DNA from: a virus
Reading direction: 5' to 3' (one strand)
DNA length: 24,654 nt
IMG/VR virus record: IMGVR_UViG_3300031566_010334
Location: 1 to 24,654 of that record
Shown: in pieces, positions 1-24,654 of the stretch
How the letters are laid out: every line of letters begins with the position of its first letter
How positions within the stretch are numbered: position 1 is the first letter of the stretch
Notes under the pieces: model-generated
Seen by the model: the letters and a program-made list of their open reading frames with translations, nothing else
Database searches by the model: none
What the model was told of the DNA's origin: nothing
Made by a program: the position numbers and the translations under genes

Positions 1-255
1 CCAAGTTGGGATAATGGAGAAGATATGTTTTTCTCTTATGCGGCCCAAAAATATATGAATCTTAAAACATATGTACCACCACATATTCCAACAGACGTTG
101 AAACTTGGTCAAATGTTCCAGCAAGGGATAATAATTGGGGTTATGATAAAAACGCTCATTCATTAACTCATTCAAATCATATTGGATTAAGAAACCAAAT
201 AGTGGCCCAGTTGATTGATAAAGGTTGGAAAACTGTAAAAAACGTAAGAAAATGA
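1..255 (+). CDS. Putative glycosyltransferase, C-terminal fragment (5' end outside window)
   Basis: The reading frame is open from base 1, before the first ATG at 25, so this is the last 84 or so codons of a gene that begins upstream. The visible part opens with a W-D-N-G-E-D stretch followed by an aromatic-rich helix. A GED/ED element just before a helix is common near the catalytic base of GT-A family glycosyltransferases. The frame ends in a lysine/arginine-rich tail and its TGA overlaps the next ATG (ATGA at 252-255), so the two genes are probably translationally coupled. The downstream neighbours are all sugar-modifying enzymes, which supports a glycosyltransferase role. The family call rests on a short fragment and is tentative. 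Confidence 0.5.
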   Translation, partial: PSWDNGEDMFFSYAAQKYMNLKTYVPPHIPTDVETWSNVPARDNNWGYDKNAHSLTHSNHIGLRNQIVAQLIDKGWKTVKNVRK

Positions 256-1007
256 AAACATTTGAAGGACATTTTACTATGTTATTAGAAAAATTTAAAA
301 AAGGTGAGAACTTTGGTTATAGTAGATTTTCAGATGGTGAATTAAGAATAATGCAAAATTTAGAAACACAGATAGGTAGTAATTTTCATGTTATCGGTAA
401 TAAACGTGGTGGTGGTAATTATTACACTGAAGACTATAAACACTTTGACCCTAATAAACACCAATTTTATCATGGTAAATTAATGGAAGCATTTAGATTT
501 AAAAAAGACAATTATTATGTTGGATTAAGTTGTAGGTGCTGCGTGGGTGAAGCTGATTTTAAACAAATGTTAGAGTGGTATGAGGGTGATAGTGATAGTG
601 ATAATTTAACGTGGGCTAACATATTCCTTAACGGTAATTACCCAAAATTCATGAGTGAATTTGTACCAGAACTTAAAAATAAAAAAGTAGTATATATTGT
701 TAATGAAAATGCTAAATTAGCTGGATTACCATTTGACGTTATAAAAGATTTCAGAGTAGGACCTAATTGTATTGTAAATAATTACGATATGATTGAAGAG
801 ATAAAAGAATGGATTGATGATAATAATATAGAAAATCACGTATTCTTATTTTCAGCGTCTAGCTTAAGTAATTTCATGATACATCAATTATTTGAATATA
901 GTAATAAAAATACTTATCTTGATATAGGTACAACTTTAAACCCTTTTATGGGTATGAAAGGTAGACGAGGGTATCATGGGAGTAATACTAAAATGTGTAT
1001 ATGGTAA
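252..1007 (+). CDS. Putative GT-D type glycosyltransferase (DUF1792-like)
   Basis: A 251-aa protein read from the ATG at 252, which overlaps the upstream stop; a TTG at 225 would add nine residues but lacks this coupling. Near the N-terminus (residues 22-31) is a Y-S-R-F-S-D-G-E-L motif. It matches the R-F-x-D-G-E signature of the GT-D glycosyltransferase fold (DUF1792, as in streptococcal SP_1767-type enzymes), where the D-x-E acidic pair binds the nucleotide sugar and metal. The C-terminal third has an L-F-S-A-S-S-L-S segment and then Y-L-D-I-G-T, matching the family's late 'G-x-x-A...D-I-G' region. It likely transfers a sugar from a nucleotide donor during assembly of the glycan made by this cluster. 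Donor and acceptor are unknown. The fold call is moderately secure. Confidence 0.55.
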   Translation: MKTFEGHFTMLLEKFKKGENFGYSRFSDGELRIMQNLETQIGSNFHVIGNKRGGGNYYTEDYKHFDPNKHQFYHGKLMEAFRFKKDNYYVGLSCRCCVGEADFKQMLEWYEGDSDSDNLTWANIFLNGNYPKFMSEFVPELKNKKVVYIVNENAKLAGLPFDVIKDFRVGPNCIVNNYDMIEEIKEWIDDNNIENHVFLFSASSLSNFMIHQLFEYSNKNTYLDIGTTLNPFMGMKGRRGYHGSNTKMCIW

Positions 1008-1753
1008 TGGATTTAGAAGAAAAAATATTTAGTGAATTAGACACGAAAAGATTTGGTGTTAAAGTTGGTAAAGTAACTGAAGAAGTTTTACTAATACCAA
1101 ATGTAATGAATAAAATAAGAGATTTAGGTTTTGAATTATTAATTGCTAGAGTTGAATTAAAGAATATTCAATTAATTAATCGAATGGAAAATGATGGATT
1201 TGGCCTGAAAGATATTCAATGCACTTATTATTATAATTTAGAAGATTATGATAAAAATAATAATTCATTTAAAGAGGATGGATATATTATCAGAGAATTT
1301 AAAAGTACTGATACTGAAGAATTAATTAAAGTAGCTAAAGAATGTTTTGATGGTTATGGACATTATTTTAGTAATGATAGATTAGATAAAGATGATTGTA
1401 TAGAAGTTTATGGGGATTGGACATACAATTCATGCACCAACATTAAGGTAGCTGATAAAATATTTGTTAGTGAATTTGAAGGAACACCTGTAGGTTTTCT
1501 TTCATTTAAAATATATACCAAAGGTGATAAAAAATACGCTGCTGGTGGAATGGGTGCTGTTAGCCCTAAACATAGAGGCAAATCTATATTCCCTAGAATT
1601 GTAGCTAAAGGATTAGAATGGGGTGTTTGGGCTAATTTAGATTGGGAAGAGCATAATGTAATAGTCAATAATAAGTCAGTAAATAGGTCATTCACTAAAA
1701 TGGGCTTTAAACCTGATAATTTCGTAACCACAATGCATTGTTGGTTAGATTAA
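1007..1753 (+). CDS. GNAT-family N-acetyltransferase, WecD-like
   Basis: A 248-aa protein starting at an ATG that shares its A with the upstream TAA (TAATG). GTG 995 and ATG 1001 are alternative starts. The N-terminal half opens with L-D-T-K-R-F-G-V, like the 'L-D-x-x-F-F-G' opening of WecD/FdtC-type acetyltransferases acting on nucleotide-linked amino sugars. The C-terminal GNAT domain shows the acetyl-CoA pyrophosphate loop A-V-S-P-K-H-R-G-K-S (residues 184-193) and the usual late N-x-x-S-V-N-R-S-F-x-K-M-G-F element (224-234). The next gene is a sugar aminotransferase, so a likely job is to N-acylate the amino group that enzyme installs, as in TDP-fucosamine synthesis. The exact substrate is inferred from context only. 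Confidence 0.7.
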   Translation: MDLEEKIFSELDTKRFGVKVGKVTEEVLLIPNVMNKIRDLGFELLIARVELKNIQLINRMENDGFGLKDIQCTYYYNLEDYDKNNNSFKEDGYIIREFKSTDTEELIKVAKECFDGYGHYFSNDRLDKDDCIEVYGDWTYNSCTNIKVADKIFVSEFEGTPVGFLSFKIYTKGDKKYAAGGMGAVSPKHRGKSIFPRIVAKGLEWGVWANLDWEEHNVIVNNKSVNRSFTKMGFKPDNFVTTMHCWLD

Positions 1754-1766
1754 AAAATATATAAAA

Positions 1767-2402
1767 ATGTTTGATAGGAAAAAATATAATCCATACCAAG
1801 TAGTTAAATTATTTGAAGAATGTATAGCTGATTATACAGGTGCCAAATATGCCGTATCTGTTGATTCGTGCACAAGTGCATTATTTCTTTGTAGTAAGTA
1901 CCTTGAGGTTACAAAGGTAACAATACCTAATAAAACTTATTTATCAGTACCACAATCAATAATACACGCTGGCGGTGAGGTAATATTTGATACTAACGTA
2001 GATGTAAATAATTGGCAAGGAATATATCAATTAAAACCTTATCCAATATATGATGCGGCAAAAAGATTAACATCAAACATGTACATTGAAGACGCATTTA
2101 TGTGTTTATCATTCCACATTAAAAAGCATTTAAAAATTGGTAAAGGTGGTATGATATTGACTAATGATAAAGATGCGGTAACTTGGTTTAAAAAAGCTAG
2201 ATACGAAGGTAGGGGTGAAAAATTATACCATGAAGATAATATCACATCATTTGGTTGGAATATGTATATGACCCCTCAAGAAGCTGTTCATGGACTAGCG
2301 TTGATGCAAAATTATCCAGAACATGCAGAAGATTTAATGGAAAATGGGGGATATAGAGATTTAACCGAATTCGACATTTTTAAAAAAAATAAAAAAATAT
2401 AA
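1767..2402 (+). CDS. Miniature DegT/DnrJ/EryC1-type sugar aminotransferase (copy 1)
   Basis: A 211-aa PLP-dependent protein that aligns by eye with the core of the DegT/DnrJ/EryC1/StrS family (usually about 370 aa). It has a C-T-S-A-L phosphate-binding turn (residues 35-39, family S-G-T-A-A-L), Y-D-A-A (95-98) with the aspartate that contacts the PLP ring nitrogen, and S-F-H-I-K-K-H-L (115-122), where K120 takes the place of the Schiff-base lysine, followed by G-K-G-G-M-I. The usual C-terminal small domain and a large internal stretch are missing. A second compact copy lies at 4402-4998, and both end in a D-L-T-x-x-D-I-F-K tail, so this is a defined short family and not a broken gene. Expected chemistry is transfer of an amino group to a keto-sugar nucleotide. 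Confidence 0.7.
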   Translation: MFDRKKYNPYQVVKLFEECIADYTGAKYAVSVDSCTSALFLCSKYLEVTKVTIPNKTYLSVPQSIIHAGGEVIFDTNVDVNNWQGIYQLKPYPIYDAAKRLTSNMYIEDAFMCLSFHIKKHLKIGKGGMILTNDKDAVTWFKKARYEGRGEKLYHEDNITSFGWNMYMTPQEAVHGLALMQNYPEHAEDLMENGGYRDLTEFDIFKKNKKI

Positions 2403-2406
2403 TATA

Positions 2407-2982
2407 ATGAGCAATTTTAGCGTGAAAGATTATTGGGATGATAGATATAAAAAAAATGGCCATTCAGGGTGGGGTAGCCATGACAAATCATCAGTGAATT
2501 TTAAAAAAGACTTTGTTAATAAAATTATTAAGGAATATGAATGTAAGTCGGTTATTGAATTAGGGTGTGGTGACGGTAACCAACTAATGTATTTTAAAGA
2601 TTATGAAAAATATTATGGTCATGATATCAGCCCTACAATTATAGAAAAAAATAAAATAATATTTAAGGGTGATAATACCAAAATATTTGAGTCTGATGTA
2701 AATAAATTATTAAATAAGAAATATGATTTAGCTTTAAGTTTAGATGTTACATATCATTTAGTTGGTGACGACATGTTCGAAGAATATATGAATAATTTAT
2801 TTAGCTTATCCGATATAATTTGTTTATTCACTGTAAATACTGAAGAAGCTGAAACCATATCACATGTTAAACATAGAAGAATTACAGATTATATCACAGA
2901 TAATTTTCCAGAATACACCTTAATTAATACTGAAATGTTTGGGGAAACTAGGGTTGGCTTTTTTTTATATATAAAAAAATAA
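2407..2982 (+). CDS. Class I SAM-dependent methyltransferase
   Basis: A 191-aa protein with a Rossmann-type SAM site: motif I E-L-G-C-G-D-G (residues 51-57) after a beta strand, and an acidic residue at the end of the next strand (G-H-D-I-S, D73). The N-terminus (Y-W-D-D-R-Y near residues 9-14) resembles the substrate-side helix of TPMT/UbiE-like small-molecule methyltransferases. It starts four bases after the preceding stop and ends one base before the next start, so it belongs to the glycan operon. A role in O- or N-methylation of a sugar is inferred from context; the sequence does not fix the substrate. Confidence 0.7.
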   Translation: MSNFSVKDYWDDRYKKNGHSGWGSHDKSSVNFKKDFVNKIIKEYECKSVIELGCGDGNQLMYFKDYEKYYGHDISPTIIEKNKIIFKGDNTKIFESDVNKLLNKKYDLALSLDVTYHLVGDDMFEEYMNNLFSLSDIICLFTVNTEEAETISHVKHRRITDYITDNFPEYTLINTEMFGETRVGFFLYIKK

Positions 2983-2983
2983 T

Positions 2984-3523
2984 ATGAAAAATTTATTAAA
3001 AATTGGTTATGATGTGATTATTGATGATTTTGTTAAAATTAAAAGACCACATTTAGTTAATATAGGTAATCATATTGCAATAGATTGGGGGTTTTATTGT
3101 ACAACTTCATTAGATATTGGAGACTATACACACATATCCCCATACGTTACATGTATTGGTGGTGCCAAAGGTAAATTTATAACCAAAGGGTTTAATAATA
3201 TCATGGCTGGTGCACGTATTATATGTAGCTCTGATAGATTTGATGATAGTGGTTTATTTGGTGCTATGATACCAGATGATTTAAAAGGTAAACAAATCTT
3301 AGGTGATGTGGTTATGGAAGAATTCTCCAATATAGGTACCAACGCCATTGTTTTACCAAATTCTATTTTAAGAAAAGGTGTGTTATTAACCGCTGGAAGT
3401 TTATTAATGGGTGATACAGAAGAATGGGGAGTTTATAAAGGAAACCCAGCAGTATTAGTTAAAAAAATAGATAAAACAAAAATAATAGAAAGTGCTAAAA
3501 AATTAGGTTATAAAGGTGAATGA
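2984..3523 (+). CDS. Left-handed beta-helix (hexapeptide) O-acetyltransferase
   Basis: A 179-aa protein with the repeating I/V-G-x-x-x-x periodicity of the left-handed beta-helix acyltransferases over most of its length (for example I-G-N-H-I-A, I-G-D-Y-T-H-I-S, I-G-T-N-A-I-V-L-P). It carries the S-S-D-R-F-D-D-S-G-L loop that in the WbbJ/galactoside O-acetyltransferase subfamily reads S-D-D-F-S-G. The end has E-E-W-G-V-Y-K-G-N-P-A, the normal closing motif of sugar O-acetyltransferases (W-x-x-y-x-G-x-P-A). It probably adds an acetyl group from acetyl-CoA to a hydroxyl or amine on the nucleotide sugar or finished glycan. It overlaps the next gene by 8 bases. Confidence 0.75.
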   Translation: MKNLLKIGYDVIIDDFVKIKRPHLVNIGNHIAIDWGFYCTTSLDIGDYTHISPYVTCIGGAKGKFITKGFNNIMAGARIICSSDRFDDSGLFGAMIPDDLKGKQILGDVVMEEFSNIGTNAIVLPNSILRKGVLLTAGSLLMGDTEEWGVYKGNPAVLVKKIDKTKIIESAKKLGYKGE

Positions 3524-4400
3524 AAAAAAACTATACATCACCAACGGAATTACCCAAGATGGGTTTGGCGCAAGACTTCAAAGAGCGTTACATGCCATGG
3601 CGTTTACATTACACTTACGTGATACATTAAACATTAACGTAGAATACATCCACACCCCATTTACATACGAAGGTTTCGGTGAAAATTATCGAATGGGTGA
3701 ACAAGCAAGAGCTGTTGGTGATAATAAAGAACCTTATGATGAAATCAGCCGTGAAGGGTATCTAAAAAGAGCTAAATTGTGGGATGAAATGATAGCTTAT
3801 AATGGTATTAAAATCACTGATATTAATTTAGATAAATTTAATATTATAGATTCTACAGGTAAAAGCGTTAAAAATAAGATAAAAGAACAGACTTCCAACA
3901 CATTATTTATCGTTAAATATTTACAAAAAGATTTTAATAAAAACGAAATAGATTTCAACATTATCACTAAATATTATGACGAAATCAGTGAAAAATTAGG
4001 GTTTATAGATAAAAACGAAAAAAATAATGATTTTATTCTTCACATTAGGCGTAAAGATGCTATATTATACAGAGATGTTAGATTTCTTGAAGATGAATAT
4101 TATTTAGATATTTTAAAATTAATTGAACCAATTAAGGATAAATATAATGTTTCTATACATACACAATATAAAAATTTTAATAAAAATAGGTATAGTGGTT
4201 GGGAAATAACGTATGATAATGAAGAGGAAGATTATGATTTATTCAAGACTATGGTAAATGCCAAAGTTTTAATTATGGGTAAAAGCTCATTTAGTCTTAC
4301 AGCTGGAATGCTTAACCAAAATATAGTAATTTACCCACAACAACCAACCAAACCTTTGAGTAGGTGGATTAATAAAAGAGAATTAATAAAATACATTTAA
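3516..4400 (+). CDS. Putative GT-B fucosyltransferase-like glycosyltransferase
   Basis: A 294-aa protein with a GTG start at 3516, overlapping the previous gene by 8 bases; no in-frame ATG lies nearby. Residues 15-23 (D-G-F-G-A-R-L-Q-R) resemble the G-x-G-N-Q-L opening of GT11/GT23/NodZ/O-FucT-type fucosyltransferases. Residues 176-182 (H-I-R-R-K-D-A) match their H-x-R-R-x-D donor-binding motif, and G-K-S-S-F-S-L-T-A-G (255-264) matches the late S-S-F-S element. The best reading is a glycosyltransferase of the alpha-fucosyltransferase superfamily, perhaps using GDP-fucose or a related GDP sugar. The neighbouring Fcl-like dehydrogenase at 4995 is consistent with that, but the donor is inferred. 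Confidence 0.55.
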   Translation: MNEKKLYITNGITQDGFGARLQRALHAMAFTLHLRDTLNINVEYIHTPFTYEGFGENYRMGEQARAVGDNKEPYDEISREGYLKRAKLWDEMIAYNGIKITDINLDKFNIIDSTGKSVKNKIKEQTSNTLFIVKYLQKDFNKNEIDFNIITKYYDEISEKLGFIDKNEKNNDFILHIRRKDAILYRDVRFLEDEYYLDILKLIEPIKDKYNVSIHTQYKNFNKNRYSGWEITYDNEEEDYDLFKTMVNAKVLIMGKSSFSLTAGMLNQNIVIYPQQPTKPLSRWINKRELIKYI

Positions 4401-4401
4401 A

Positions 4402-4998
4402 ATGAGTTTTAAAGCAGTAGCAGAATTTGAAACCGAGATAGCAAAATATTTTGGCGCACCTTACGCAGTAGCAACCGATTGTTGTACACATGGAATAGAG
4501 TTGTGTTTACGATTAAGTGAGGTTACAGAAATAACGGTACCAAATAGGACATATCTTTCAGTACCAATGTTGGCAAACAAACTGAACATTGATTTACATT
4601 GGCGGGATAAAGAATGGAAAGATTATTACTATCTTGGTAGTTGGAACAATGTAATAGATGCCGCAGTTCTTTGGAAGCAAAATAGCTATATTCAAGGAAC
4701 AATGATGAACCTAAGTTTCCAATTCAGAAAACATTTAAGTCTTGGTAGGGGTGGTATGATATTACTTGATAACGAAGAAGATGCGAAGATGTTAAAAAAA
4801 ATGTCATATGATGGTAGATTACCCGACATTCCTTGGTCAAAACAAAATGTAGATACAATGGGATATCATTATTATATGACTCCCGAAACGGCACAATTAG
4901 GGTTAGATAAACTACCAAATGCTATTAAGACCGAACCAGAGAAATGGGAGTATACAGATTGGCCTGATTTAACACAAATGGATATATTCAAACAATGA
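4402..4998 (+). CDS. Miniature DegT/DnrJ/EryC1-type sugar aminotransferase (copy 2)
   Basis: A 198-aa paralogue of the 1767-2402 product. It shares the same landmarks: F-G-A-P-Y-A-V-A near the start, a cysteine/threonine phosphate-binding turn C-C-T-H-G (27-31), V-I-D-A-A (84-88, PLP-ring aspartate D86), S-F-Q-F-R-K-H-L (105-112) with K110 as the predicted Schiff-base lysine, then G-R-G-G-M-I. Both proteins carry N-K/R-T-Y-L-S-V-P and end in D-L-T-x-x-D-I-F-K. The C-terminal domain of classical enzymes is absent. Two diverged copies in one cluster suggest either two keto-sugar substrates or a heteromeric enzyme. The stop overlaps the next start (ATGA at 4995). Confidence 0.68.
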   Translation: MSFKAVAEFETEIAKYFGAPYAVATDCCTHGIELCLRLSEVTEITVPNRTYLSVPMLANKLNIDLHWRDKEWKDYYYLGSWNNVIDAAVLWKQNSYIQGTMMNLSFQFRKHLSLGRGGMILLDNEEDAKMLKKMSYDGRLPDIPWSKQNVDTMGYHYYMTPETAQLGLDKLPNAIKTEPEKWEYTDWPDLTQMDIFKQ

Positions 4999-5918
4999 AA
5001 AAGAAAATTTTAATATTAGGTGGATTTGGATTTTTGGGTAAAAGTCTAAATAAAGCATTAGAAGATGATTATATAATTTATAATGAAAGTAGGCGAACCG
5101 ATTGTGATGCGCTAAATTTAGAAGTTTTAACGTCTAAAATAGAAAAGATAACCCCTGATATAATAATTTTTACATCCGCACATGTAGGCTCTATTAATTA
5201 TGTGTCAGAACATGCTGCTGAAGTAATAAATGATAACATACAAATGTATATTAATTTGTATAAAGCGGTAACAGAAGTAAATAAAGATATCATAATCATA
5301 AATCCACTTGCAAATTGTTCATACCCTGGAGTTATTAATATTCAAAATGAAGAATATTGGTGGGATGGTAAAATACACGAATCAGTTGAGGCTTATGGTA
5401 TGTCCCAAAAAACCGCATTTATAATATCTGAATGTTATAAAAAACAATATGGTATTAAAACAATTAATTTAATTTTACCAGGGTTATACGGTGAGGGAGA
5501 TTATTTTGATGAAGAAAGAACTCACGCTATGAGTGGCATCATTATGAGAATGATAGGAGCGCAAAAAAATAATGATGAAGAATTTGAAGTTTGGGGTACG
5601 GGTTCACCAATAAGAGAATGGTTATTTGTTGATGATGTTGGTAGGATAGTAAAAGAGATTATAGATGATGATAAATACGATTTACCAAATCCGTTGAATC
5701 TTGGCCAAGAACATGGAATTTCTATAAAAGATATAGCACTTAAGGTTAAAGAATTATTAAATTATGATGGGAATATTGTATATGATACAACAAAACAAGA
5801 TGGGGCACCAATCAAAATATTGGATTCGAAATTATTTAACGAACATTTTCCAGAATTTAGATTTACTGGTTATGAAGTTGGGATAAATAATGCAATAAAC
5901 TATTATAAAAATGTGTAA
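4995..5918 (+). CDS. Extended-SDR nucleotide-sugar epimerase/reductase, GDP-L-fucose synthase-like
   Basis: A 307-aa extended short-chain dehydrogenase. The N-terminal NAD(P)-binding G-G-F-G-F-L-G is at residues 9-15. S-A-H-V-G-S-I (61-67), A-N-C-S-Y-P-G (106-112), L-Y-G-E-G-D-Y, W-G-T-G and R-E-W-L-F-V-D-D follow in the order seen in GDP-L-fucose synthase (Fcl/WcaG), which has S-S-C-I-Y-P and W-G-x-G-x-P-x-R-E-F. Such enzymes epimerise and reduce GDP-4-keto-6-deoxymannose. One oddity is that the catalytic Y-x-x-x-K reads Y134-G-M-S-Q138 with the lysine one place late at 139. No GMD-like dehydratase is in view, so the exact sugar is unproven. Confidence 0.65.
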   Translation: MKKKILILGGFGFLGKSLNKALEDDYIIYNESRRTDCDALNLEVLTSKIEKITPDIIIFTSAHVGSINYVSEHAAEVINDNIQMYINLYKAVTEVNKDIIIINPLANCSYPGVINIQNEEYWWDGKIHESVEAYGMSQKTAFIISECYKKQYGIKTINLILPGLYGEGDYFDEERTHAMSGIIMRMIGAQKNNDEEFEVWGTGSPIREWLFVDDVGRIVKEIIDDDKYDLPNPLNLGQEHGISIKDIALKVKELLNYDGNIVYDTTKQDGAPIKILDSKLFNEHFPEFRFTGYEVGINNAINYYKNV

Positions 5919-6626
5919 ATGAAAATAATAATACCAACATGTGATAAATACATTAATGTATTAGAAGGCGAAAAATATACCTTTGATAAGAATGGTGGGT
6001 CTAATTTAGATGTTACCATATTAGGGTTTAAAGAACCTAAATTTGAGTTGGGTAACTGGAAGTTTGTATCCTTAGGCGTTGATACTGGACCACAAAATCT
6101 TAGTCATGACCTTTGGAACTTCTTCGAAACGTTTGATGATGAATTTTTTATTTACGGTAATGATGATATTGTTGCGGTAGATACAATAGATTTAGAATTA
6201 TTAAATGAGATGGAACAAATGATGGTAGATAACCCAGATATTATGAAAATAAATATTACTTCAGCGTTTGGTCATTCATTATCACACTATGATACGTTTA
6301 AAGATATGGGAGATTATCAGTATAAGGTAGTGCCGCAAAATGCGGATTATAGATTATCACTAAATTCAAGTATTTGGAGAACATCTTATTTTAAAAAATA
6401 TTGTAAATTAGGTGCTGGGCATTGGGTTTGGGAAACTAGACCTGTGGCAAAAAATGACGGAGCAATACTTTTAGGAACTACAGGTAGGCATGTTATAGAT
6501 TTTGGGCATATTTTTAGAGAGGGAAAAATGAAAGCTTCTAAAGATTGGTTTAAATCTGAATACACTAATAAACAATTAACAGATGAAGATTATTCGTATG
6601 TTGATAACATAATAAATAATTTATAA
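5919..6626 (+). CDS. Putative GT-A glycosyltransferase
   Basis: A 235-aa protein that starts immediately after the upstream stop. It opens with a beta strand M-K-I-I-I-P-T-C-D-K like GT-A folds. F-F-I-Y-G-N-D-D-I-V (residues 76-85) occupies the place of the metal-binding D-x-D after a strand. Later S-L-N-S-S-I-W-R and H-W-V-W-E-T-R resemble the acceptor-side and catalytic-base region of small phage and capsule glycosyltransferases. I do not recognise a specific family. The glycosyltransferase call comes from this layout and from its place between two nucleotide-sugar SDR enzymes. Confidence 0.45.
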   Translation: MKIIIPTCDKYINVLEGEKYTFDKNGGSNLDVTILGFKEPKFELGNWKFVSLGVDTGPQNLSHDLWNFFETFDDEFFIYGNDDIVAVDTIDLELLNEMEQMMVDNPDIMKINITSAFGHSLSHYDTFKDMGDYQYKVVPQNADYRLSLNSSIWRTSYFKKYCKLGAGHWVWETRPVAKNDGAILLGTTGRHVIDFGHIFREGKMKASKDWFKSEYTNKQLTDEDYSYVDNIINNL

Positions 6627-6627
6627 T

Positions 6628-7566
6628 ATGAAAAAAGTTTTAATAACAGGTGGAGCTGGTTATTTAGGTTCCACATTAACAGAATTATTATTATATAAGG
6701 GTTATAAAGTAGACGTTCTAGATGATTTATCGTTAAGACAAACATCATTATTTCATTTATGTTATAATGAGAATTTTAATCTTATAGAAGCAGATGCTAC
6801 AAATTATAAGTACCTATCAAGTATAGTACCTAATTATGATGTTATAATCCCTTTAGCTGCTGTTGTTGGGGCACCAGCTTGCGAGGCAAATAAAGATTTG
6901 GCCACTAGATTAAATTTTGGCCACGTTAAGGTAATAGTGGATGCAATGAACCCTACTCAGAAATTACTAATGCCTAACACCAACAGTCAATATGGTAGTT
7001 CGGATAAAATAATAACTGAAGATAGTCCATTCAACCCATTATCACATTACGCCAAAACTAAATGTGATGCTGAAGATTATATTATGAAAAGTGGTAATGG
7101 AATTTGTTTTAGGTTAGCCACAGTCTTTGGTGCGTCACCAAGAATGAGAACAGATTTATTAGTTAACGATTTTGTACATAAGGCAATTGTTGATGGGTAT
7201 TTGGTGTTATTCCAAGCACATTTCAAAAGAAATTATATTCACGTTAAAGATATAGCAAACACATTCTTATTTGGTATTGAAAATTATGATAAATTAAATA
7301 ATGATGTTTTTAACGTTGGTTTATCAACTGCTAATTTATCCAAAAGGGAATTAGCTGATAAAGTTAAGGAATATATTCCAAATTTAGTTATTATTGAAAA
7401 TGACTTTAGTTCTGACTTCGACAATAGGAATTATATCGTCTCTAACGATAAATTAGAAAGTTTTGGATGGAAACCTACTCACACAATAGATAGTGGTGTA
7501 ATCGAGCTAATTAAAGCTTATAAGATGATAATTAAACATAATAATAAGAATTTTACTAATTTATAA
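6628..7566 (+). CDS. NAD-dependent epimerase/dehydratase (extended SDR)
   Basis: A 312-aa extended SDR with the N-terminal nucleotide-binding G-G-A-G-Y-L-G (8-14), an acidic residue ending beta-2 (V-L-D-D-L, typical of NAD preference), N-T-N-S-Q-Y-G (117-123, the S-S-x-x-x-Y-G element) and the catalytic Y-A-K-T-K (Y141, K145). The later Y-I-H-V-K-D-I-A and F-N-V-G are standard for UDP-glucose 4-epimerase/dehydratase-type enzymes. Length is normal for the family. It could be a 4-epimerase, a 4,6-dehydratase feeding the aminotransferases, or an HldD-like heptose epimerase; the sequence alone does not decide. Confidence 0.7.
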   Translation: MKKVLITGGAGYLGSTLTELLLYKGYKVDVLDDLSLRQTSLFHLCYNENFNLIEADATNYKYLSSIVPNYDVIIPLAAVVGAPACEANKDLATRLNFGHVKVIVDAMNPTQKLLMPNTNSQYGSSDKIITEDSPFNPLSHYAKTKCDAEDYIMKSGNGICFRLATVFGASPRMRTDLLVNDFVHKAIVDGYLVLFQAHFKRNYIHVKDIANTFLFGIENYDKLNNDVFNVGLSTANLSKRELADKVKEYIPNLVIIENDFSSDFDNRNYIVSNDKLESFGWKPTHTIDSGVIELIKAYKMIIKHNNKNFTNL

Positions 7567-7570
7567 AAAT

Positions 7571-8245: not shown

Positions 8246-8651
8246 AAATATGGAAAGAAAATATTTACCGACATTATCAGAATTAATTGATAGATTATCA
8301 ATAATTCAATTAAAAGAAGTGTTCATCGTTGAACATAAAGAAGAATATGCTAAAGAAATTGATGAGATTGTTCATGACATTAATATATTATTAAAAGAAA
8401 GCGATAAAGTGGATGGTGAGTTTATCCGAGCTACTATTGTTTTAGCCCAAATGAATTTACATATTTGGCATAATGAATCAAATTATCGTAAGGGTATTAA
8501 AGATGGTAATAATTTAGAATTAACCCATGGGTTAAATGGCATTAGAAATGTTGCTAAAAATAAGATTCAAGAAATAAATGGCGGTAGAAAGGATTATAAA
8601 ATTGATTGTTTAGCGGCAGAGTTTAAAGATTGGGAAATATCTTGGAAATAG
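8238..8651 (+). CDS. Small helical protein, weakly DUF4254-like
   Basis: A 137-aa protein read from the ATG at 8238; a TTG at 8217 would lengthen the overlap with the upstream gene. It is charged and predominantly helical, with no signal peptide or membrane segment. The stretch N-L-H-I-W-H-N-E-S-N-Y-R near the middle resembles the N-x-x-L-W-H-x-E-D-x-x-R pattern of DUF4254 proteins, which often sit beside glycosyltransferases in LPS-type clusters. Function is unknown. It lies directly upstream of the heptose block and is probably part of the same transcription unit. Confidence 0.4.
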   Translation: MSKNMERKYLPTLSELIDRLSIIQLKEVFIVEHKEEYAKEIDEIVHDINILLKESDKVDGEFIRATIVLAQMNLHIWHNESNYRKGIKDGNNLELTHGLNGIRNVAKNKIQEINGGRKDYKIDCLAAEFKDWEISWK

Positions 8652-10318: not shown

Positions 10319-10326
10319 AATAATAA

Positions 10327-12603: not shown

Positions 12604-12611
12604 AAAATAAA

Positions 12612-13619: not shown

Positions 13620-13655
13620 TTTTTGTTTAGTTTTTAAAATTTGTAAGTATATTTA

Positions 13656-14412: not shown

Positions 14413-14414
14413 TT

Positions 14415-14445: not shown

Positions 14446-14459
14446 ATTAAACTAATACA

Positions 14460-15378: not shown

Positions 15379-15380
15379 AA

Positions 15381-16469: not shown

Positions 16470-16470
16470 G

Positions 16471-17259: not shown

Positions 17260-17265
17260 GTATTA

Positions 17266-18009: not shown

Positions 18010-18027
18010 TAAAAGCCTAAAACCACC

Positions 18028-18043
18028 TATTTATAATAAAAAG
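18028..18043 (+). promoter_or_regulatory. 16-base AT element upstream of the morphogenesis block (copy 1)
   Basis: TATTTATAATAAAAAG lies seven bases before the ATG at 18051. It matches the element at 21425-21440 at 14 of 16 positions. It could be a late promoter of the phage sigma factor or an A-rich translation enhancer. Function is not shown by the sequence. Confidence 0.35.
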
Positions 18044-18050
18044 ATATATT

Positions 18051-18422
18051 ATGCCCAGAGCCACAAAACAAAAAATAGAAATTAATAACAGCAATTCTCT
18101 TCAGAATATAATGCAAGAAGTTTACAATAATGCTTGCGGTATGATTCAAGATGCTCAAAAAGTAATCAATGAAGTTGATTCTGGTTCATCACCAGAAGAT
18201 GTTGATGATTGGGTTAAAATAGCCAAAGCAAAAACAGACGCTTTAAAACTTAAGGATTCAGCAATAAAAATCAAATTAGATGTTGGTAAATTACAAAGTG
18301 ATATCATTAAACATAATGGTGATATTGCTGCGGCAGTTGGTAATAACCAAGAAATTGTTAGTAAAGATAGTTTTGCCAGAATTAGAGAAATGGTTAACAA
18401 TAGAGACTCAAAATCTGAATAA
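18051..18422 (+). CDS. Small helical phage protein, 123 aa
   Basis: The protein begins basic (P-R-A-T-K-Q-K), then is mostly helical with heptad-like hydrophobic spacing from about residue 17 to 95, including a D-A-L-K-L-K-D-S-A-I-K-I-K-L-D-V run. It has no signal or membrane segment. The size, helical content, and position at the head of the morphogenesis genes would suit a small terminase-like subunit (gp16 type) or an assembly chaperone, but I see no decisive motif. It follows the sigma factor gene by 41 bases, the largest plus-strand gap in this part, and has a candidate regulatory element immediately upstream. Confidence 0.5.
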   Translation: MPRATKQKIEINNSNSLQNIMQEVYNNACGMIQDAQKVINEVDSGSSPEDVDDWVKIAKAKTDALKLKDSAIKIKLDVGKLQSDIIKHNGDIAAAVGNNQEIVSKDSFARIREMVNNRDSKSE

Positions 18423-18431
18423 AATTTTATA

Positions 18432-19889
18432 ATGGATGTTACTAGAGAAAAATCTAATGTATTCGGTCAAATAGCTGCATTAAGGGTTTCCAGCGAAGGT
18501 TACCCTAAAATGTCTTTGCTGAATTCTCTAGAATCCATATCCCAAAAAACAAATAGCTTAGATTTCCTAATAGACTTACACAAGGCTTTAATTGGTTTCG
18601 AATCACTTAAAGAATCTTTAGTAGAAGTATTAACATATAATTTAGAAGAAATTGAATTAGAGATTAAAAAAGCACTTAAAAAATCTTTAAAATCTATGGT
18701 TAGTTGTAGTATAAACCCTTCTATACCACAAGACTTCATTGATAATGGAATTACATTAGAATTAAATAAAATTGATTTACTTGATATCTTTAAAGTAGAC
18801 CCTTTATCTAGTGCTGGTAAATTATTTTATGATGATAGGGAAAGTTTATTAAATAGTACCGACTTCAACACATACTTGTATAACACAATCCAAGATAATG
18901 GTGGAACCAACGCTTGGGGATTACAAACAACTAATAATGAAATCCTTCAAATAAGATTTGATGAAAATGGGTCAGACGCTAACTCACCTAACAATACTAT
19001 AAACGTAAAACCAAGTGATTATTACAGTAACACAGCATACAATAGAAAATTACCAGATTTAAATAATGATTATATTGATAGTATAAAGTTATTCAATCCT
19101 CAAAAATTGATTAACAATATTATTGAATCTATTTTTGGCACTCTTAGTATACACATAGGTAAAAGCAAAGAACAAATAAAAAATGAGATTAGAATTGAAG
19201 ATATTATCAATAGGATTATAAATACTGATGAAGAAATCGTTATCGATGATAGTTATTTTCTTTTTAGCAACGAAGAAATAAGTTCAATTGATTATAGAGC
19301 TGAGATTAGAAGACAAGGTAAAACTATAATAACCACTTGCGGTAATGTCGAATCAACAGTATCTATTGAAAATTTATCTAATTTAAACGATGAATTAGAT
19401 GATTTAAATGATGAACCTAATACTCCACAATTAATTGAAATAACCAACACTATAGTTAAAAGCGGTTTAGACACATTAGCTGATAATTCAGCCGATAATG
19501 TGAATGAAAAAGATAAGTTAAATATTAAAATTAATTTTATTGAAAAAATGTTAAAACATTTGATGTCAGCAATAGTGAATGTAATCTTATCACCAAAATT
19601 AATTATAATATTAGCCGTAAATCATGCTATTGTTTATGGTGAAACATTTAATAATACAGAAGACTTTATTAGTAAAAATAGAAGTTTAATTACTGAAGTT
19701 TTAAAAACTATTAGAAATGCGGTAATCGCTATTTTAATGGAAAAGATATTAAAACAAATAAAAATTTTAGTAACAGATAATATAATAAAAACTCAAATTG
19801 AAAGAGTTAAATTTAAAAAAGCTCAGACAGCTAGTTTAGTAGGTATACCAACTGACTTACTTAGACAAATATCTGGATTAATAACTTAA
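18432..19889 (+). CDS. Large helical virion-region protein of unknown function, 485 aa
   Basis: I do not recognise a named family. The N-terminal 90 residues and the C-terminal 130 residues are strongly helical. The middle is rich in N, D, S and T (N-N-T-I-N-V, D-D-L-N-D-E-P-N), as in linker or beta regions of virion proteins. Residues about 375-400 form a long apolar helix (V-I-L-S-P-K-L-I-I-I-L-A-V) that could be buried in an assembly or cross a membrane. The next genes run from 3 bases after its stop to the gp5-like hub. Best guess is a baseplate or tail component, inferred from location only. Confidence 0.5.
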   Translation: MDVTREKSNVFGQIAALRVSSEGYPKMSLLNSLESISQKTNSLDFLIDLHKALIGFESLKESLVEVLTYNLEEIELEIKKALKKSLKSMVSCSINPSIPQDFIDNGITLELNKIDLLDIFKVDPLSSAGKLFYDDRESLLNSTDFNTYLYNTIQDNGGTNAWGLQTTNNEILQIRFDENGSDANSPNNTINVKPSDYYSNTAYNRKLPDLNNDYIDSIKLFNPQKLINNIIESIFGTLSIHIGKSKEQIKNEIRIEDIINRIINTDEEIVIDDSYFLFSNEEISSIDYRAEIRRQGKTIITTCGNVESTVSIENLSNLNDELDDLNDEPNTPQLIEITNTIVKSGLDTLADNSADNVNEKDKLNIKINFIEKMLKHLMSAIVNVILSPKLIIILAVNHAIVYGETFNNTEDFISKNRSLITEVLKTIRNAVIAILMEKILKQIKILVTDNIIKTQIERVKFKKAQTASLVGIPTDLLRQISGLIT

Positions 19890-19892
19890 ATT

Positions 19893-20297
19893 ATGGCACA
19901 AGCAAGTTCAATGACAAACGTTATAAATACGCTAAAAGCAGCTTTCTCTGTACCTAGAACACCAATAGAGAGCATACCACCTCAATTACTTTTGGTTGGT
20001 GCTAGATTAAGACCAGGTTTAAGTTCTAGAAATGTAGCCGCTAGAGTTATAGCTAGACAATCAGAAACTGGTGCGCCAGTAGGTGATATTTTTTCTGAAA
20101 ATTCCAACGTTATGGAATCAATGATTGTTGTAATTGTTGAAGAGGTAATCAGTGCTTTACAGTTAGATGCTAAAATAGAAATTGTTGTTCCACCTGGTGT
20201 TCAGGTAACCACAACAGGTTTAGGTAATATGGGTGGCCCTGTTATAAGTCAAGGCGCAACAACAGCGATAGCTAAAGGTGAAGGCGTAATTAGATAA
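19893..20297 (+). CDS. Conserved-type phage structural-region protein, 134 aa
   Basis: A compact protein with a P-P-Q-L-L-L-V-G-A-R-L-R-P-G-L-S-S-R segment (24 to 43) followed by A-A-R-V-I-A-R-Q-S-E-T-G-A-P-V-G and a C-terminal half rich in glycine and threonine (I-E-I-V-V-P-P-G-V-Q-V-T-T-T-G). I recall this arrangement from uncharacterised proteins beside baseplate genes in T4-like phages, but cannot name a function. Fewer lysines and more alanine and glycine than its neighbours, as expected for a packed structural subunit. The next small gene starts three bases after its stop. Confidence 0.5.
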   Translation: MAQASSMTNVINTLKAAFSVPRTPIESIPPQLLLVGARLRPGLSSRNVAARVIARQSETGAPVGDIFSENSNVMESMIVVIVEEVISALQLDAKIEIVVPPGVQVTTTGLGNMGGPVISQGATTAIAKGEGVIR

Positions 20298-20299
20298 TT

Positions 20300-20470
20300 A
20301 TGAATTACGAAGAAATGTCAAATACAGAGATAATTACTATTCATATAGAAATGAATGAAGAATATGAGGCTATCAAAACCCAAATCCTTCAACTCGTAGA
20401 AAAAATGGATAGAATGGATGTTGAATATGCTAAAGGAAAAGCAGTTTTAAATAAAAGATTACAAAGATAA
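20300..20470 (+). CDS. Small helical protein, 56 aa
   Basis: An ATG at 20300 opens a 56-codon frame ending at the TAA 20468-20470, whose last base is the first base of the next ATG (TAATG). Without it there would be a 172-base hole in an otherwise packed operon. The product is acidic at the N-terminus (N-Y-E-E-M-S-N-T-E) and has one long amphipathic helix (Y-E-A-I-K-T-Q-I-L-Q-L-V-E-K-M) ending in a basic tail (N-K-R-L-Q-R), suited to coiled-coil contact with a partner. Function unknown. Confidence 0.65.
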   Translation: MNYEEMSNTEIITIHIEMNEEYEAIKTQILQLVEKMDRMDVEYAKGKAVLNKRLQR

Positions 20471-21414
20471 TGAGTAATAAATATGCATATGGTGGTGGCA
20501 GTATATATAATAAAGGCTCTAAGAGGCGTTTAGAGAGCACTATATACTATTATGGCAAGGTTGTGTCCAATTTTGATGAAGTGGGCGCAAATCGCATTAA
20601 AGTGCGTATTACTGGCGTTGATGACACTATTGTTAACGATGAGTTAACCTACGCATTCCCAATGTTGCAAAAATTCTTTCATGTTGTACCAAAAGTAGGT
20701 GAAACTGTTTTGGTATTTATTCCAGATAGTAGAAATCCTTTCATTGATAGATTATATTTAGGCCCAATTATTTCTCAACCGCAAAATTTATTAAAAGATA
20801 GTGAATTATTTTCTTCTAAATCAACTTTAAGTAGTGGAATAAAACAAGCTCAACCAGCACCGTTTACCATACCTGAAAATAAAGGTGTTTACCCTAATAT
20901 AACCGATATCGCCATTCAAGGTAGAAACAATTCTGATATAATTCTTAAAGAAAAACAAGTATTACTTAGAGCTGGACAATTTGATTCAAATATATCAAAA
21001 GGAGAAATTCCTAAATTCAATTTAATAAATCCATCATATATTCAAATTAAGCATGATGTGGTATTGGTTGAAAAAACGGAAAATAGGGCTACCGAATTTG
21101 GTGGTACCATAAACGTGGTGAGCAATAAAATTAATTTATTGACTCATAAAAATGGAACACCAAGATTTAAATTGAATAACCAAGATGATATGGTTACTGA
21201 TGAAGAAATTCAAAAGATTATAAATGAAGCACACCCATTGGTCTTTGGCGATAACTTAATCGATTTTATAAAAATATTAATAAACGCATTCACAAATCAT
21301 GTGCATGCATATCCAGGTATGAAACCACAAGACCTTTCTGGTTCTAATGATATTGATAAATTGCTTGAATACAATTTACAATCATTACTATCTAAAAATA
21401 TACGGATTAATTAA
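20470..21414 (+). CDS. Baseplate hub/spike protein with gp5-like OB domain
   Basis: A 314-aa protein. Residues about 25-105 read like the N-terminal OB-fold of T4 gp5/VgrG-type hub proteins: Y-Y-G-K-V-V-S-N-F-D, R-I-K-V-R-I-T-G-V-D-D, A-F-P-M-L-Q-K-F-F-H-V-V-P-K-V-G-E-T-V-L-V-F-I-P, then D-R-L-Y-L-G-P-I-I-S. No lysozyme domain is visible, and the C-terminal half lacks a long V-x-G-x-x-x-x repeat needle, so this is a short hub form. A late segment, F-T-N-H-V-H-A-Y-P-G, resembles the H-x-H tip motif of some phage spikes that bind metal. The protein would sit at the tip of a contractile tail. Confidence 0.65.
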   Translation: MSNKYAYGGGSIYNKGSKRRLESTIYYYGKVVSNFDEVGANRIKVRITGVDDTIVNDELTYAFPMLQKFFHVVPKVGETVLVFIPDSRNPFIDRLYLGPIISQPQNLLKDSELFSSKSTLSSGIKQAQPAPFTIPENKGVYPNITDIAIQGRNNSDIILKEKQVLLRAGQFDSNISKGEIPKFNLINPSYIQIKHDVVLVEKTENRATEFGGTINVVSNKINLLTHKNGTPRFKLNNQDDMVTDEEIQKIINEAHPLVFGDNLIDFIKILINAFTNHVHAYPGMKPQDLSGSNDIDKLLEYNLQSLLSKNIRIN

Positions 21415-21424
21415 TATTATTAGA

Positions 21425-21440
21425 TATTTATTATAAAAAC
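21425..21440 (+). promoter_or_regulatory. 16-base AT element (copy 2)
   Basis: TATTTATTATAAAAAC lies five bases before the ATG at 21446, in the 31-base gap after the hub gene. It matches the element at 18028-18043 at 14 of 16 positions and stands at nearly the same distance from a start codon. Promoter or translation element, undecided. Confidence 0.35.
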
Positions 21441-21445
21441 AAGTA

Positions 21446-22864
21446 ATGGTAATAAGAACATATTTTGACAGGAACAATACTTTAGTGTATAACCAAACTA
21501 CAAACACTGGTAAAAATCCTGTAGCTGAATTATTTTATGGTGGTGTTCCAGAAACGAAAAATCCACTATTCACAAGATATATTTTTCAATTCGATACTTC
21601 AAGAATTGAAGGATTTAGGTCAAAAGGTATGTTCCCAGATTTATCTAAAATAACCCACACTCTTAGAATGACCAACACAAGTACATTTGATGAAACTTTA
21701 TTGGGAAAAGAAACAGGTGATGGTAAAGATAGAAATTCTTCATTCAACTTAAACTTATTCGCAGTAAATCAAGATTGGGATGAGGGTATTGGTTATGATT
21801 TTGCTGGTCAAAAATATTTTTCATTATCTGATGCAACAGTATTAAGTAATGCCGCATCAAATTGGGGTGAAGCTCAAACTGGAACCGATTGGAGTAATAG
21901 TGGTGTATTTAGTGCTTGGACAGGCATAACTATTTTAGCCACACAACATTTCGAAGATGGTAATGAAAATCTTGAAATTGATATTACTAATATTGTAAAT
22001 GCTTACTTAACAGGTGGTACAAATTATGGTTTGGGTTTAGCATTCGATGAAGGTATGGAAATATCCATTGAAGATAATCTAAAATATGTCGGTTTCTTTA
22101 CCAGACATACACAAACATTCTATGAGCCTTATATAGAAACAAGATATGCAGATTCTATCATAGATAATAGAGGTAATTTTTACTTAGATAAACTTAACAA
22201 ACTTTATTTATATGTTAATTTAGGTGGCGTACCAACTGATGTAGATTCTATGTCAGGCATGGGCGTAACTATTTTAGACAATGCTGGTGAAACTTTTTCA
22301 TCATTTACAAGTAGTGACATCACTCATGTAACTCAAGGAGTATATTCAATTGAATTATTGGTACCTACCACAAATGTTGGTTGTGTATTATATGAAGATA
22401 TTTGGACTGGAGTAACCATCAATGGAATTACTAGACCAGCCATTGAATTAGAATTTGAGTTGAAATCTGCTGATGGTTATTATAACATCGGTTCTGATTC
22501 TTCAGTACCTAAACAGTTCACTTTTAACGTTTCAGGTATTAAAGATAAAGAAAAAATCAATAGGGGTGATATAAGGAAAGTTAGAATTATGGCTAGAGTT
22601 CCTTACACAACAAACCAACAAGAAGTGTTGGATTCATTAGAATATAGGCTATATACCAGAGAAGGTAAAGCTGAATATACAGTTATTGATTATGCGCCAG
22701 TAGAATTGGCATTTAACTACAATTATTTCTTATTAGATACAGCTAGTCTTGTCCCAACAAGATACTACTTAGATGTTAAAGCAACATCAAGCTACGAAGT
22801 GACCACAACTAAAAATATTATTAGTTTTGACATTACGAGCCAAGTAGATGAAAGAAAGGGTTAA
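21446..22864 (+). CDS. Beta-rich virion protein with DNRLRE-like N-terminal domain
   Basis: A 472-aa protein rich in aromatic residues, T, N, G and D, with few lysine-rich helices, typical of a tail or baseplate surface protein. The first 230 residues follow the layout of DNRLRE-type beta-sandwich domains: R-Y-I-F-Q-F-D-T-S-R-I, T-H-T-L-R-M-T-N-T, L-N-L-F-A-V-N-Q-D-W-D-E-G, a glycine/tryptophan-rich loop, L-E-I-D-I-T-N-I-V-N-A-Y, then G-L-G-L-A-F-D-E. The remainder looks like two further Ig-like or beta-sandwich domains. A carbohydrate- or surface-binding role is plausible, but specificity is unknown. Its last codons overlap the next small gene. Confidence 0.55.
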   Translation: MVIRTYFDRNNTLVYNQTTNTGKNPVAELFYGGVPETKNPLFTRYIFQFDTSRIEGFRSKGMFPDLSKITHTLRMTNTSTFDETLLGKETGDGKDRNSSFNLNLFAVNQDWDEGIGYDFAGQKYFSLSDATVLSNAASNWGEAQTGTDWSNSGVFSAWTGITILATQHFEDGNENLEIDITNIVNAYLTGGTNYGLGLAFDEGMEISIEDNLKYVGFFTRHTQTFYEPYIETRYADSIIDNRGNFYLDKLNKLYLYVNLGGVPTDVDSMSGMGVTILDNAGETFSSFTSSDITHVTQGVYSIELLVPTTNVGCVLYEDIWTGVTINGITRPAIELEFELKSADGYYNIGSDSSVPKQFTFNVSGIKDKEKINRGDIRKVRIMARVPYTTNQQEVLDSLEYRLYTREGKAEYTVIDYAPVELAFNYNYFLLDTASLVPTRYYLDVKATSSYEVTTTKNIISFDITSQVDERKG

Positions 22865-23012
22865 AATAGAAGATTCTAAATGTATCAACACTAAATGTCC
22901 AATAAATCAATATTGCTACACTTACAATAATTCAGCAACCAAAATAGTTTGGTTCGACTTCTTTTATATTAACAAAAACCACATGGGTTGTGATTTTTAT
23001 TCAAAATTATAG
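22848..23012 (+). CDS. Small cysteine-containing protein, 54 aa
   Basis: An ATG at 22848, overlapping the previous stop by 17 bases, opens a 54-codon frame ending with TAG 23010-23012. The protein is M-K-E-R-V-K-I-E-D-S followed by a region with four cysteines at positions 12, 17, 23 and 48 (K-C-I-N-T-K-C-P, Q-Y-C-Y-T, G-C-D-F-Y). The spacing could bind a zinc ion or form disulphides. It fills the end of the plus-strand operon before the convergent minus-strand gene. I do not recognise it; the regular frame and coupling support a real gene. Confidence 0.55.
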   Translation: MKERVKIEDSKCINTKCPINQYCYTYNNSATKIVWFDFFYINKNHMGCDFYSKL

Positions 23013-23041
23013 TTTACTTATTTGAAATTTTAGGTTCATAA

Positions 23042-23695
23042 TTAAGCTTTGAATATTTTATTTCTAAGTCCAGAAACATCAATTTCTTTATCTTCAATTT
23101 CTAATGCCTCAATTTTTATTGGGGTATTTTTAAATAGAGTGATTTCTCTTTCATCTTCACCAATTTGCGGGTCTATATTGGCTATAATAGTTTGATTCCA
23201 ATCAACATAACTTTGATTTATTGAAGTTTGAATTTTAATTCGTTTTCCAGCACCACCCCAATGAGCCTCAGCCGAATTTTTATCAAAGGACCAATATCTG
23301 CCTAAACGTTTAGCTTCTCTAGGTAATGATTGAATCCATTTATCATCAACAGTCATTTCACGCCAAATGGTGATTATATCACCATCAATATAATCTTGAA
23401 TATCACTTATAAATTGCTCAATTCTATATTCAACTTCATATGTTATCCATTGTTTAAATCTATCCAATTCAAGGATTTCATCTTCATCCATATCCATCAA
23501 GGCTTCTTTTTCTTCTGAGTTTAGATTATAATCATCTTGCATTTCATATTTAAACATCGTTACAGGTGTTTCCGTAGAACTAGATAACCACGAATCAACG
23601 ATTTTCTTAACATTAAAGTCTTGTAATGAAATGTTTGAAATGGGCATTTCATTCATTAAACCTTCCCTTAATAACTTTTTAATTGATTGTGACAT
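23042..23695 (-). CDS. Putative ADP-ribosyltransferase (R-S-ExE type) on the minus strand
   Basis: A 217-aa protein, the only minus-strand gene in the window. Residues 108-114 (I-T-I-W-R-E-M) give a strand with R112. R-L-G-R-Y-W-S-F-D (130-138) gives S136, followed by A-E-A-H-W-G. E-D-E-R-E-I-T-L-F-K-N-T-P-I-K-I (180-195) gives an E182-R-E184 pair before a strand. This order (R, then S with a following A-x-x-x-W/F, then E-x-E with a 'g-t-x-x-x-i' strand) is the R-S-E signature of arginine-type ADP-ribosyltransferases such as T4 Alt, ModA and ModB. The N-terminus (S-I-K-K-L-L-R-E-G-L) resembles a cleavable targeting peptide. The family call is mine by eye and needs structural confirmation. Confidence 0.45.
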   Translation of the reverse strand: MSQSIKKLLREGLMNEMPISNISLQDFNVKKIVDSWLSSSTETPVTMFKYEMQDDYNLNSEEKEALMDMDEDEILELDRFKQWITYEVEYRIEQFISDIQDYIDGDIITIWREMTVDDKWIQSLPREAKRLGRYWSFDKNSAEAHWGGAGKRIKIQTSINQSYVDWNQTIIANIDPQIGEDEREITLFKNTPIKIEALEIEDKEIDVSGLRNKIFKA

Positions 23696-23697
23696 AC

Positions 23698-23705
23698 TAT
23701 AAATA
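23698..23705 (+). promoter_or_regulatory. TATAAATA octamer, candidate late promoter (plus strand)
   Basis: An exact match to the T4 late-promoter consensus in the 168-base intergenic region, about 160 bases upstream of the plus-strand gene at 23864. If used, it would give a leader of about 150 bases containing the three hairpins. The octamer also occurs by chance inside genes (9073, 19217, 19922), so a match alone is weak. Confidence 0.3.
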
Positions 23706-23751
23706 GTTTATTCCCCATAATTGTTTACATTTTTTTATTTTTTCATATATT

Positions 23752-23759
23752 TATTTATA
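23752..23759 (-). promoter_or_regulatory. TATAAATA octamer, candidate late promoter (minus strand)
   Basis: The reverse complement of 23752-23759 is TATAAATA, 56 bases upstream of the ADP-ribosyltransferase-like gene start at 23695. A transcript from here would have a leader of roughly 45 bases. Together with the plus-strand octamer this suggests a divergent, gp55-dependent promoter pair. Confidence 0.35.
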
Positions 23760-23769
23760 ACGTGATTGA

Positions 23770-23824
23770 ACTAGCGTGTTAGTCTTGAGTCGCAAATCGA
23801 CTTTAGAGTTATCCAAAAGGTAAC
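23770..23824 (+). other. Three consecutive small hairpins in the leader of the last gene
   Basis: Three hairpins lie in a 55-base stretch: ACTA/TAGT (23770-23773 with 23780-23783, loop 6); AGTCG/CGACT (23788-23792 with 23798-23802, loop CAAAT); and GTTA-CC/GG-TAAC (23808-23814 with 23819-23824, one bulged T, loop AAAA). Each is short, but three in a row with a GC content above the surroundings suggests a structured 5' leader or small RNA. They end 39 bases before the ATG at 23864. Confidence 0.4.
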
Positions 23825-23863
23825 GAAAATATTAGCACATTAATTTTAAATTAAAAAGTAATT

Positions 23864-24654
23864 ATGACAATTAAAACAATTTCGGATAAAAATCCGACAG
23901 CTAATCTTGCTATCAATAGAAGTAGGATTAAAAAGTATGGGAAGAATAAGAGTATTCCTTCATACTATTTAGAAAAGGGACAAGAGTTCCAAATCGAACT
24001 GTACAATCCAACTCAGGAAAAAGTACTTACAACAATCAAATTAAATAACAAACCAATTTCAGGTGGCTTAGTTTTAAGACCAGGTGAACGTGTATTCCTT
24101 GATAGGTTTTTAGACACAAACAAAAAGTTTCTATTTGATACCTATAAAGTGGATAATACCAAATCTTCACGAAAAGCTATTGAACCTAATGGTGACGTAG
24201 AAATCGCATTCTTTAAAGAAATCCAAATTCAACCTTTTATGAGTTATGCTAGTGGTACCGTAACATTAGATTGGACGGATAATAGTACTGGTAATATTGG
24301 TAATTCATTTATAACCACCAATGGTAATGTTGGTATAGGAACAACTACTGACTTAAAAAATGTACTTTCTACCAATACTGGTGGAGTTACATTTTCAGGG
24401 CCAGCTGTTACAAATAGTGTTAACTGTAGTTATAACTTAAGTGATGTGGGTCAAGATTTTTATATTCCTGTTAGGGGTGTATTGAAGGGTTCTACTTTTG
24501 CAAAAGCTTTAAAATCTAGAGCTAGAAATGTAACACCTACTAAAATTGAAACTGGTAGAGTTGAACAAGGTTCAAAATCAGACCAAAGTTTATGTGAAGC
24601 AACTGGTGAATTCGAAACAAGTTCATTTCATGTTGTTAGGTATAAATTATTACC
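23864..24654 (+). CDS. Virion-type structural protein, N-terminal part (3' end outside window)
   Basis: An ATG at 23864 opens a frame that stays open to the last base (263 complete codons). The N-terminal 110 residues contain K-K-Y-G-K-N-K-S-I-P-S-Y-Y, G-Q-E-F-Q-I-E-L-Y-N-P, G-G-L-V-L-R-P-G-E-R-V-F-L-D-R-F and R-K-A-I-E-P-N-G-D-V-E-I-A-F-F-K-E. I recall this arrangement from uncharacterised virion-region proteins of large phages, where a beta-sandwich displays a 'L-R-P-G-x-R-V-x-L-x-R' turn. The following region is rich in G, T, S and N (G-N-V-G-I-G-T-T), like a tail-fibre stalk. It is probably a late structural or fibre gene under the divergent promoter region. Confidence 0.55.
   Translation, partial: MTIKTISDKNPTANLAINRSRIKKYGKNKSIPSYYLEKGQEFQIELYNPTQEKVLTTIKLNNKPISGGLVLRPGERVFLDRFLDTNKKFLFDTYKVDNTKSSRKAIEPNGDVEIAFFKEIQIQPFMSYASGTVTLDWTDNSTGNIGNSFITTNGNVGIGTTTDLKNVLSTNTGGVTFSGPAVTNSVNCSYNLSDVGQDFYIPVRGVLKGSTFAKALKSRARNVTPTKIETGRVEQGSKSDQSLCEATGEFETSSFHVVRYKLL

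Follow-up and report, generated by a model that had tools for sequence, protein, structure and literature searches.

Avoidance of restriction sites by phages is well known, and its extreme form is typical of non-temperate double-stranded DNA phages; among phages whose hosts carry GATC enzymes, GATC is underrepresented (Rusinov et al. 2018, PMC6286503). Complete loss of this word is likewise established in Staphylococcus: the Twort-like phages K and fRuSau02, both large virulent myoviruses, have no GATC anywhere in their genomes (PMC5618024). Within the T4 superfamily, the Far-T4 phage RM378 of Rhodothermus (NC_004735), at best a distant relative of the phage described here, has lost the palindromes CTAG (0 observed of 90 expected) and GGCC (0/118) in 100 kb. 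Because RM378 lacks CTAG and GGCC but has a normal frequency of GATC, the missing palindromes differ from phage to phage within the superfamily. Rhodothermus marinus makes RmaI, a CTAG enzyme, for which our literature search returned no confirmation. Among the nearest cultured relatives is Flavobacterium phage vB_FspM_immuto (Immutovirus), with identities of 27% in the terminase, 37% in the portal and 38% in the capsid protein and, as here, leaders without Shine-Dalgarno motifs. It differs in encoding 7-deazaguanine DNA-modification genes (DpdA, QueC/D/E/F) and in its near-normal GATC content (327/373 expected).

The phage lineage described here resembles the non-temperate phages of PMC6286503, as a virulent-type phage that purges palindromic type II sites, GATC included, but its loss is absolute (0 of ~3,800 expected GATC sites in 1.38 Mb), involves several words and is conserved across an uncultured lineage. 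Compared with phages K and fRuSau02, the probable hosts belong to another phylum and GATC content switches from zero to normal and back among relatives of one family. A literature search for earlier GATC-free phages found only other lineages. Absolute loss of several words in dozens of members of an uncultured T4-like lineage, with on/off switching within the family, is new.

The window (the whole stretch of 24,654 nt that was analysed) is a complete 24.6 kb virus record on its own. A 50.5 kb contig, G001, represents the same virus, matching the window at 99.98-100% identity across 15.3 kb. G001 encodes the complement expected of the T4 superfamily, namely a terminase (gp17), a portal protein (gp20) and a major capsid protein (gp23) of T4 type. 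The best annotated matches of these three proteins share 27-43% identity with them and come from Flavobacterium phage immuto and from Microcystis phage Mel-JY01. These genes place the window in a T4-superfamily phage. Mel-JY01 has neither GATC (0/95) nor CTAG (0/42) over its first 50 kb (PP395634 1-50000); its leaders are rich in Shine-Dalgarno motifs, and it encodes several N6_N4 methyltransferases. Features of the window are as follows, with site counts given as observed/expected.

1-24654, no strand: whole window, free of GATC (0/62.5), CCGG (0/10.1) and CGCG (0/7.2), also assessed by synonymous shuffles
225-12603, plus strand: island of glycan and sugar-nucleotide genes (GATC 0/29)
12588-22864, plus strand: conserved phage block common to all close relatives, including PhoH and the gp5-like baseplate hub (GATC 0/33 over 12,601-24,654)
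13687-14412, plus strand: PhoH-like ATPase gene (Pfam PF02562, E 2.5e-58)
20470-21414, plus strand: baseplate hub or tail lysozyme-like protein, a weak match (phrog_430, E 1.2e-4)
23042-23695, minus strand: protein of unassigned function (phrog_35613, E 2.4e-5), part of the codon analysis

The first-pass annotation had reported that GATC is absent from the window, that about 60 copies would be expected and that GAT and ATC are both frequent, at hundreds of copies each. A string count indeed returned zero, GAT and ATC occur 621 and 311 times, and the Markov check it had called for (maximal order, c(GAT)*c(ATC)/c(AT)) gave an expectation of 62.5, not near zero. Similar palindromes are present, as it had also stated (GTAC 44, CATG 57, AGCT 78, TCGA 33 and GGCC 17), and GATC is missing to the same extent from the glycan island (1-12,600, 0/29) and from the remainder with the structural genes (12,601-24,654, 0/33). 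That annotation missed the absence of CCGG and CGCG, for which the Markov expectations are 10.1 and 7.2. All three words are palindromes and are therefore missing on both strands of the window.

The glycan island encodes an acetyltransferase, DegT-type aminotransferase fragments, a SAM methyltransferase, epimerases, a PfkB kinase, a SIS isomerase and a UDP-GlcNAc 2-epimerase. About half of its genes are matched at 42-68% identity in the GATC-free contig G002 (IMGVR_UViG_3300025645_000042) and almost none in contig G003. This distribution suggests that related phages drawing on a GATC-free gene pool have passed the island between them as a module; its history is compatible both with purging in place and with arrival in an already clean state. 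Between positions 8630 and 10908 the PfkB kinase, a small nucleotidyltransferase-like protein and the SIS isomerase lie in close proximity, and judged by sequence these genes together look like a split, phage-carried ADP-heptose pathway.

Codon choice in the window separates selection on DNA from selection on proteins. In 500 synonymous-codon shuffles of the coding sequence, which keep both the proteins and the codon usage, GATC was expected 35.7 +/- 4.3 times and never fell below 24. The corresponding values were 14.8 +/- 3.2 for CCGG, where none of the 500 shuffles was as low as the observed zero, and 3.8 +/- 1.8 for CGCG, where eight were. Aspartate before C is encoded by GAC in all 20 cases and never by GAT, against 451 GAT and 68 GAC elsewhere. 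None of the 72 isoleucines after a codon ending in G uses ATC, and the four serines that follow an NGA codon are all AGY, none TCN, against 287 TCN and 159 AGY elsewhere. Where one member of a sister pair carries GATC and its partner has none, conserved residues reveal the synonymous replacements (DQ, GATCAA to GACCAA; GS, GGATCT to GGTTCA; KI, AAGATC to AAAATT). The loss of GATC is selection on DNA, not on proteins, and is synonymous where possible, as in avoidance of type II sites.

The PhoH-like ATPase gene served as the marker for collecting relatives and building a tree. All 29 first-round relatives (40-100% PhoH identity) had zero GATC. The 1.38 Mb without GATC comes from nine long contigs, each belonging to a GATC-free member of the family and covered whole or in large part: G001 (0/146), G002 (0/320), G003 (0/551), G040 (0/337), G043 (0/500), G048 (0/473), G051 (0/761), G009 (0/525) and G039 (61 kb, 0/195). 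In the wider family, defined as the 71 non-redundant loci reached by the PhoH profile, GATC content is bimodal, being exactly zero in 47 loci and near normal in most others. The zero class requires about ten changes on the PhoH tree, at least seven of them forced by well-supported branches, and the state is reversible. In the clade of the window (n=22), 21 loci have zero GATC and one is intermediate. Across 67 loci only palindromic tetramers drop below 0.1 of expectation, GATC in 48 and any other word in at most five. The affected sites are thus palindromes far below their Markov expectation, as in type II avoidance, with the five-base GCAGG/CCTGC of the window clade as the exception.

CCGG and CGCG are wholly missing from the window, G001, G002, G003 (197 kb; 0/88 and 0/69) and G016. 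Because GATC is merely halved in G016 (168/310), though CCGG and CGCG are gone, the three words were lost independently. CCSGG was rejected as an independent purged word, since it contains CCGG. The asymmetric GCAGG/CCTGC is missing from G001, G002, G003 (0/40 and 0/30) and G040, and CGNCG is nearly gone in the same four contigs, with a single copy in G002; neither GCAGG/CCTGC nor CGNCG could be paired with an enzyme. Contig G009 (IMGVR_UViG_3300031998_000008) lacks CGCG, CTGCAG, CTTAAG, GATATC, GGTACC, GTATAC and ATCGAT together with GATC. Besides zero GATC, G048 (IMGVR_UViG_3300042898_003677) has a CATG count of 4/425, and its CTGAAG is about six-fold over-represented (296/49).

We consider it very likely that GATC was purged under type II restriction by the hosts of this T4-superfamily phage, which are probably Bacteroidota. 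Type II restriction by hosts is indicated because the purge is specific to palindromes, total, made by synonymous replacement and reversible, and because purging is absent from phages expected to modify their DNA. The proposal of the first-pass annotation, that a GATC-cutting enzyme has been avoided over a long time, is accordingly the best fit to a palindrome-only purge, synonymous codon choice and a state that differs among relatives. It gains further support from the immuto-like group, in which none of 55 loci has lost any tetramer and whose immuto reference, the one member read for these genes, encodes 7-deazaguanine DNA modification. None of 75 loci of T4-like cyanophages is GATC-free, and single loci lack CCGG, GGCC, TCGA or ACGT; the cyanophage and immuto-like control sets span less diversity than the PhoH family, making the samples unequal. 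Among flavobacterial crAss-like phages, 6 of 42 are GATC-free.

We infer the host, its enzymes and restriction as the selecting force from these patterns, and hypothesize that the hosts would long have carried a GATC-cleaving type II system (MboI/DpnII/Sau3AI-like) together with others directed at CCGG and CGCG. On entering the host, phage DNA without modification would be cut at every site, so that variants with fewer sites would survive. All sites would eventually be lost, often synonymously (GATC.. to GACC.., AAGATC to AAAATT, GGATCT to GGTTCT), and incoming genes would be subject to the same site-free rule. Such enzymes exist in the phylum, with an active MboI-like GATC system in the Bacteroidota member Prevotella intermedia (PMC5608340). 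In the restriction-modification table of Flavobacterium psychrophilum CSF259-93, the palindromic tetramers are GATC, CCGG and CGCG only, assigned to a GATC methyltransferase, an HpaII-like and an FnuDII-like system (PMC11837570). This three-word match is post hoc and does not name the host; against it, the GATC methyltransferase there is an orphan, CCWGG is only partly depleted in the lineage and GCSGC is over-represented. Against restriction itself, the window clade also lacks the asymmetric GCAGG/CCTGC, a loss beyond the reach of orthodox type II palindromes, and GATC-bearing members have no consistent methyltransferase.

Shine-Dalgarno motifs were found in 1 of 25 leaders in the window and 2 of 29 in immuto, against 12 of 33 in cyanophage S-RSM4 and 20 of 34 in Mel-JY01; leaders poor in this motif fit a Bacteroidota host without being proof of one. 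Far-T4 phages, including RM378 of Rhodothermus, are predicted to infect marine Bacteroidetes (PMC7198788), and their kinship with the window phage is plausible; the branches of RM378 and S-RSM4 are very long in the portal tree built for this grouping. The Bacteroidota-type promoter pattern TTTG-N17-22-TANNTTTG occurs 45 times in G002 against 11 expected but shows no enrichment in G001, in G003 or in the window itself, making it weak evidence for the host. A host search with terminase and PhoH across the genome collection returned no match, which counts against the restriction reading in that it yielded no cognate enzyme.

Within the families searched, window-clade phages show no recognisable protection genes, with no match to PF02086, PF01555 or PF04556 and none to QueC in contigs that may be incomplete. 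Self-methylation in this clade is therefore not supported for the PF02086/PF01555-type families searched. A methyltransferase was also considered as the cause of the GATC-bearing state and rejected, as there is no clear association across members. D12 and N6_N4 methyltransferases are present in the GATC-bearing G023 and G031 and absent from the GATC-bearing G016 and G035. Among GATC-free members, G051 has both and G009 bears a D12-family DNA methyltransferase alone, yet lacks GATC.

The alternative that survives best, although we regard it as unlikely, is a host methyl-dependent nuclease (DpnI-like, type IIM or IV) that selects against GATC methylated in GATC-methylating hosts; the first-pass annotation had named such an enzyme as well. 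Phages of hosts with type IIM GATC enzymes do avoid GATC (PMC6286503), and F. psychrophilum often carries a GATC methyltransferase with no accompanying nuclease (PMC11837570). Such a life history, however, needs both methylating and methyl-cutting hosts, and CCGG and CGCG would need separate pressures.

Considerably less probable is a GATC-specific endonuclease encoded by the phage itself, which would destroy host DNA and thereby prevent the phage from keeping GATC. Degradation of host DNA by T4-like phages is known, and the GATC state is heritable in the window clade. However, none of 13 records contains a DpnII-family nuclease gene, and among the genes of G003 no family is common to all long GATC-free contigs and missing from the GATC-bearing ones. 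The best state-tracking G003 gene, present in 5 of 7 GATC-free contigs, encodes a 140-aa protein unlike a nuclease. Among G003 genes and long contigs, no phage nuclease is thus conserved in GATC-free and absent from GATC-bearing members, and the loss of CCGG and CGCG would be left unexplained.

We give still less credence to counter-selection of unmethylated GATC by MutHLS mismatch repair, a mechanism documented in E. coli phages that would hit GATC alone, whereas CCGG and CGCG, untouched by it, are purged from the same genomes. MutH and Dam characterise some Gammaproteobacteria rather than Bacteroidota, which counts against MutHLS as far as the host is indeed a member of that phylum. The proposal was made for enterobacteriophages (Deschavanne and Radman 1991, as cited in PMC4687349). 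Chance, or removal of GATC by composition, assembly or library preparation, has a negligible probability: the sequences are metagenome assemblies, but the Markov expectation already accounts for trinucleotide content, the absence spans 1.38 Mb, and a library or assembly artefact is excluded because the same metagenomes yielded GATC-bearing contigs of other phages (in 3300025645, 22/29, 24/35 and 15/27 against 0/54 for the family; in 3300024346, 17/22 and 24/22 against 0/28).

Under type II restriction by hosts, the lineage illustrates how thoroughly and for how long restriction can act on large phages in nature. The switching between zero and normal GATC, set against the unpurged group with modification genes in its reference, amounts to a natural experiment on two routes of evading restriction, and the missing set of GATC, CCGG and CGCG provides a testable fingerprint for the host. 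We suggest only tentatively that hosts across the family may share a near-universal, long-lived defence targeting GATC, which would hold most of this diverse T4-like family at zero GATC. If so, losses and regains of GATC would read out host shifts and, together with CCGG and CGCG, could identify the hosts.
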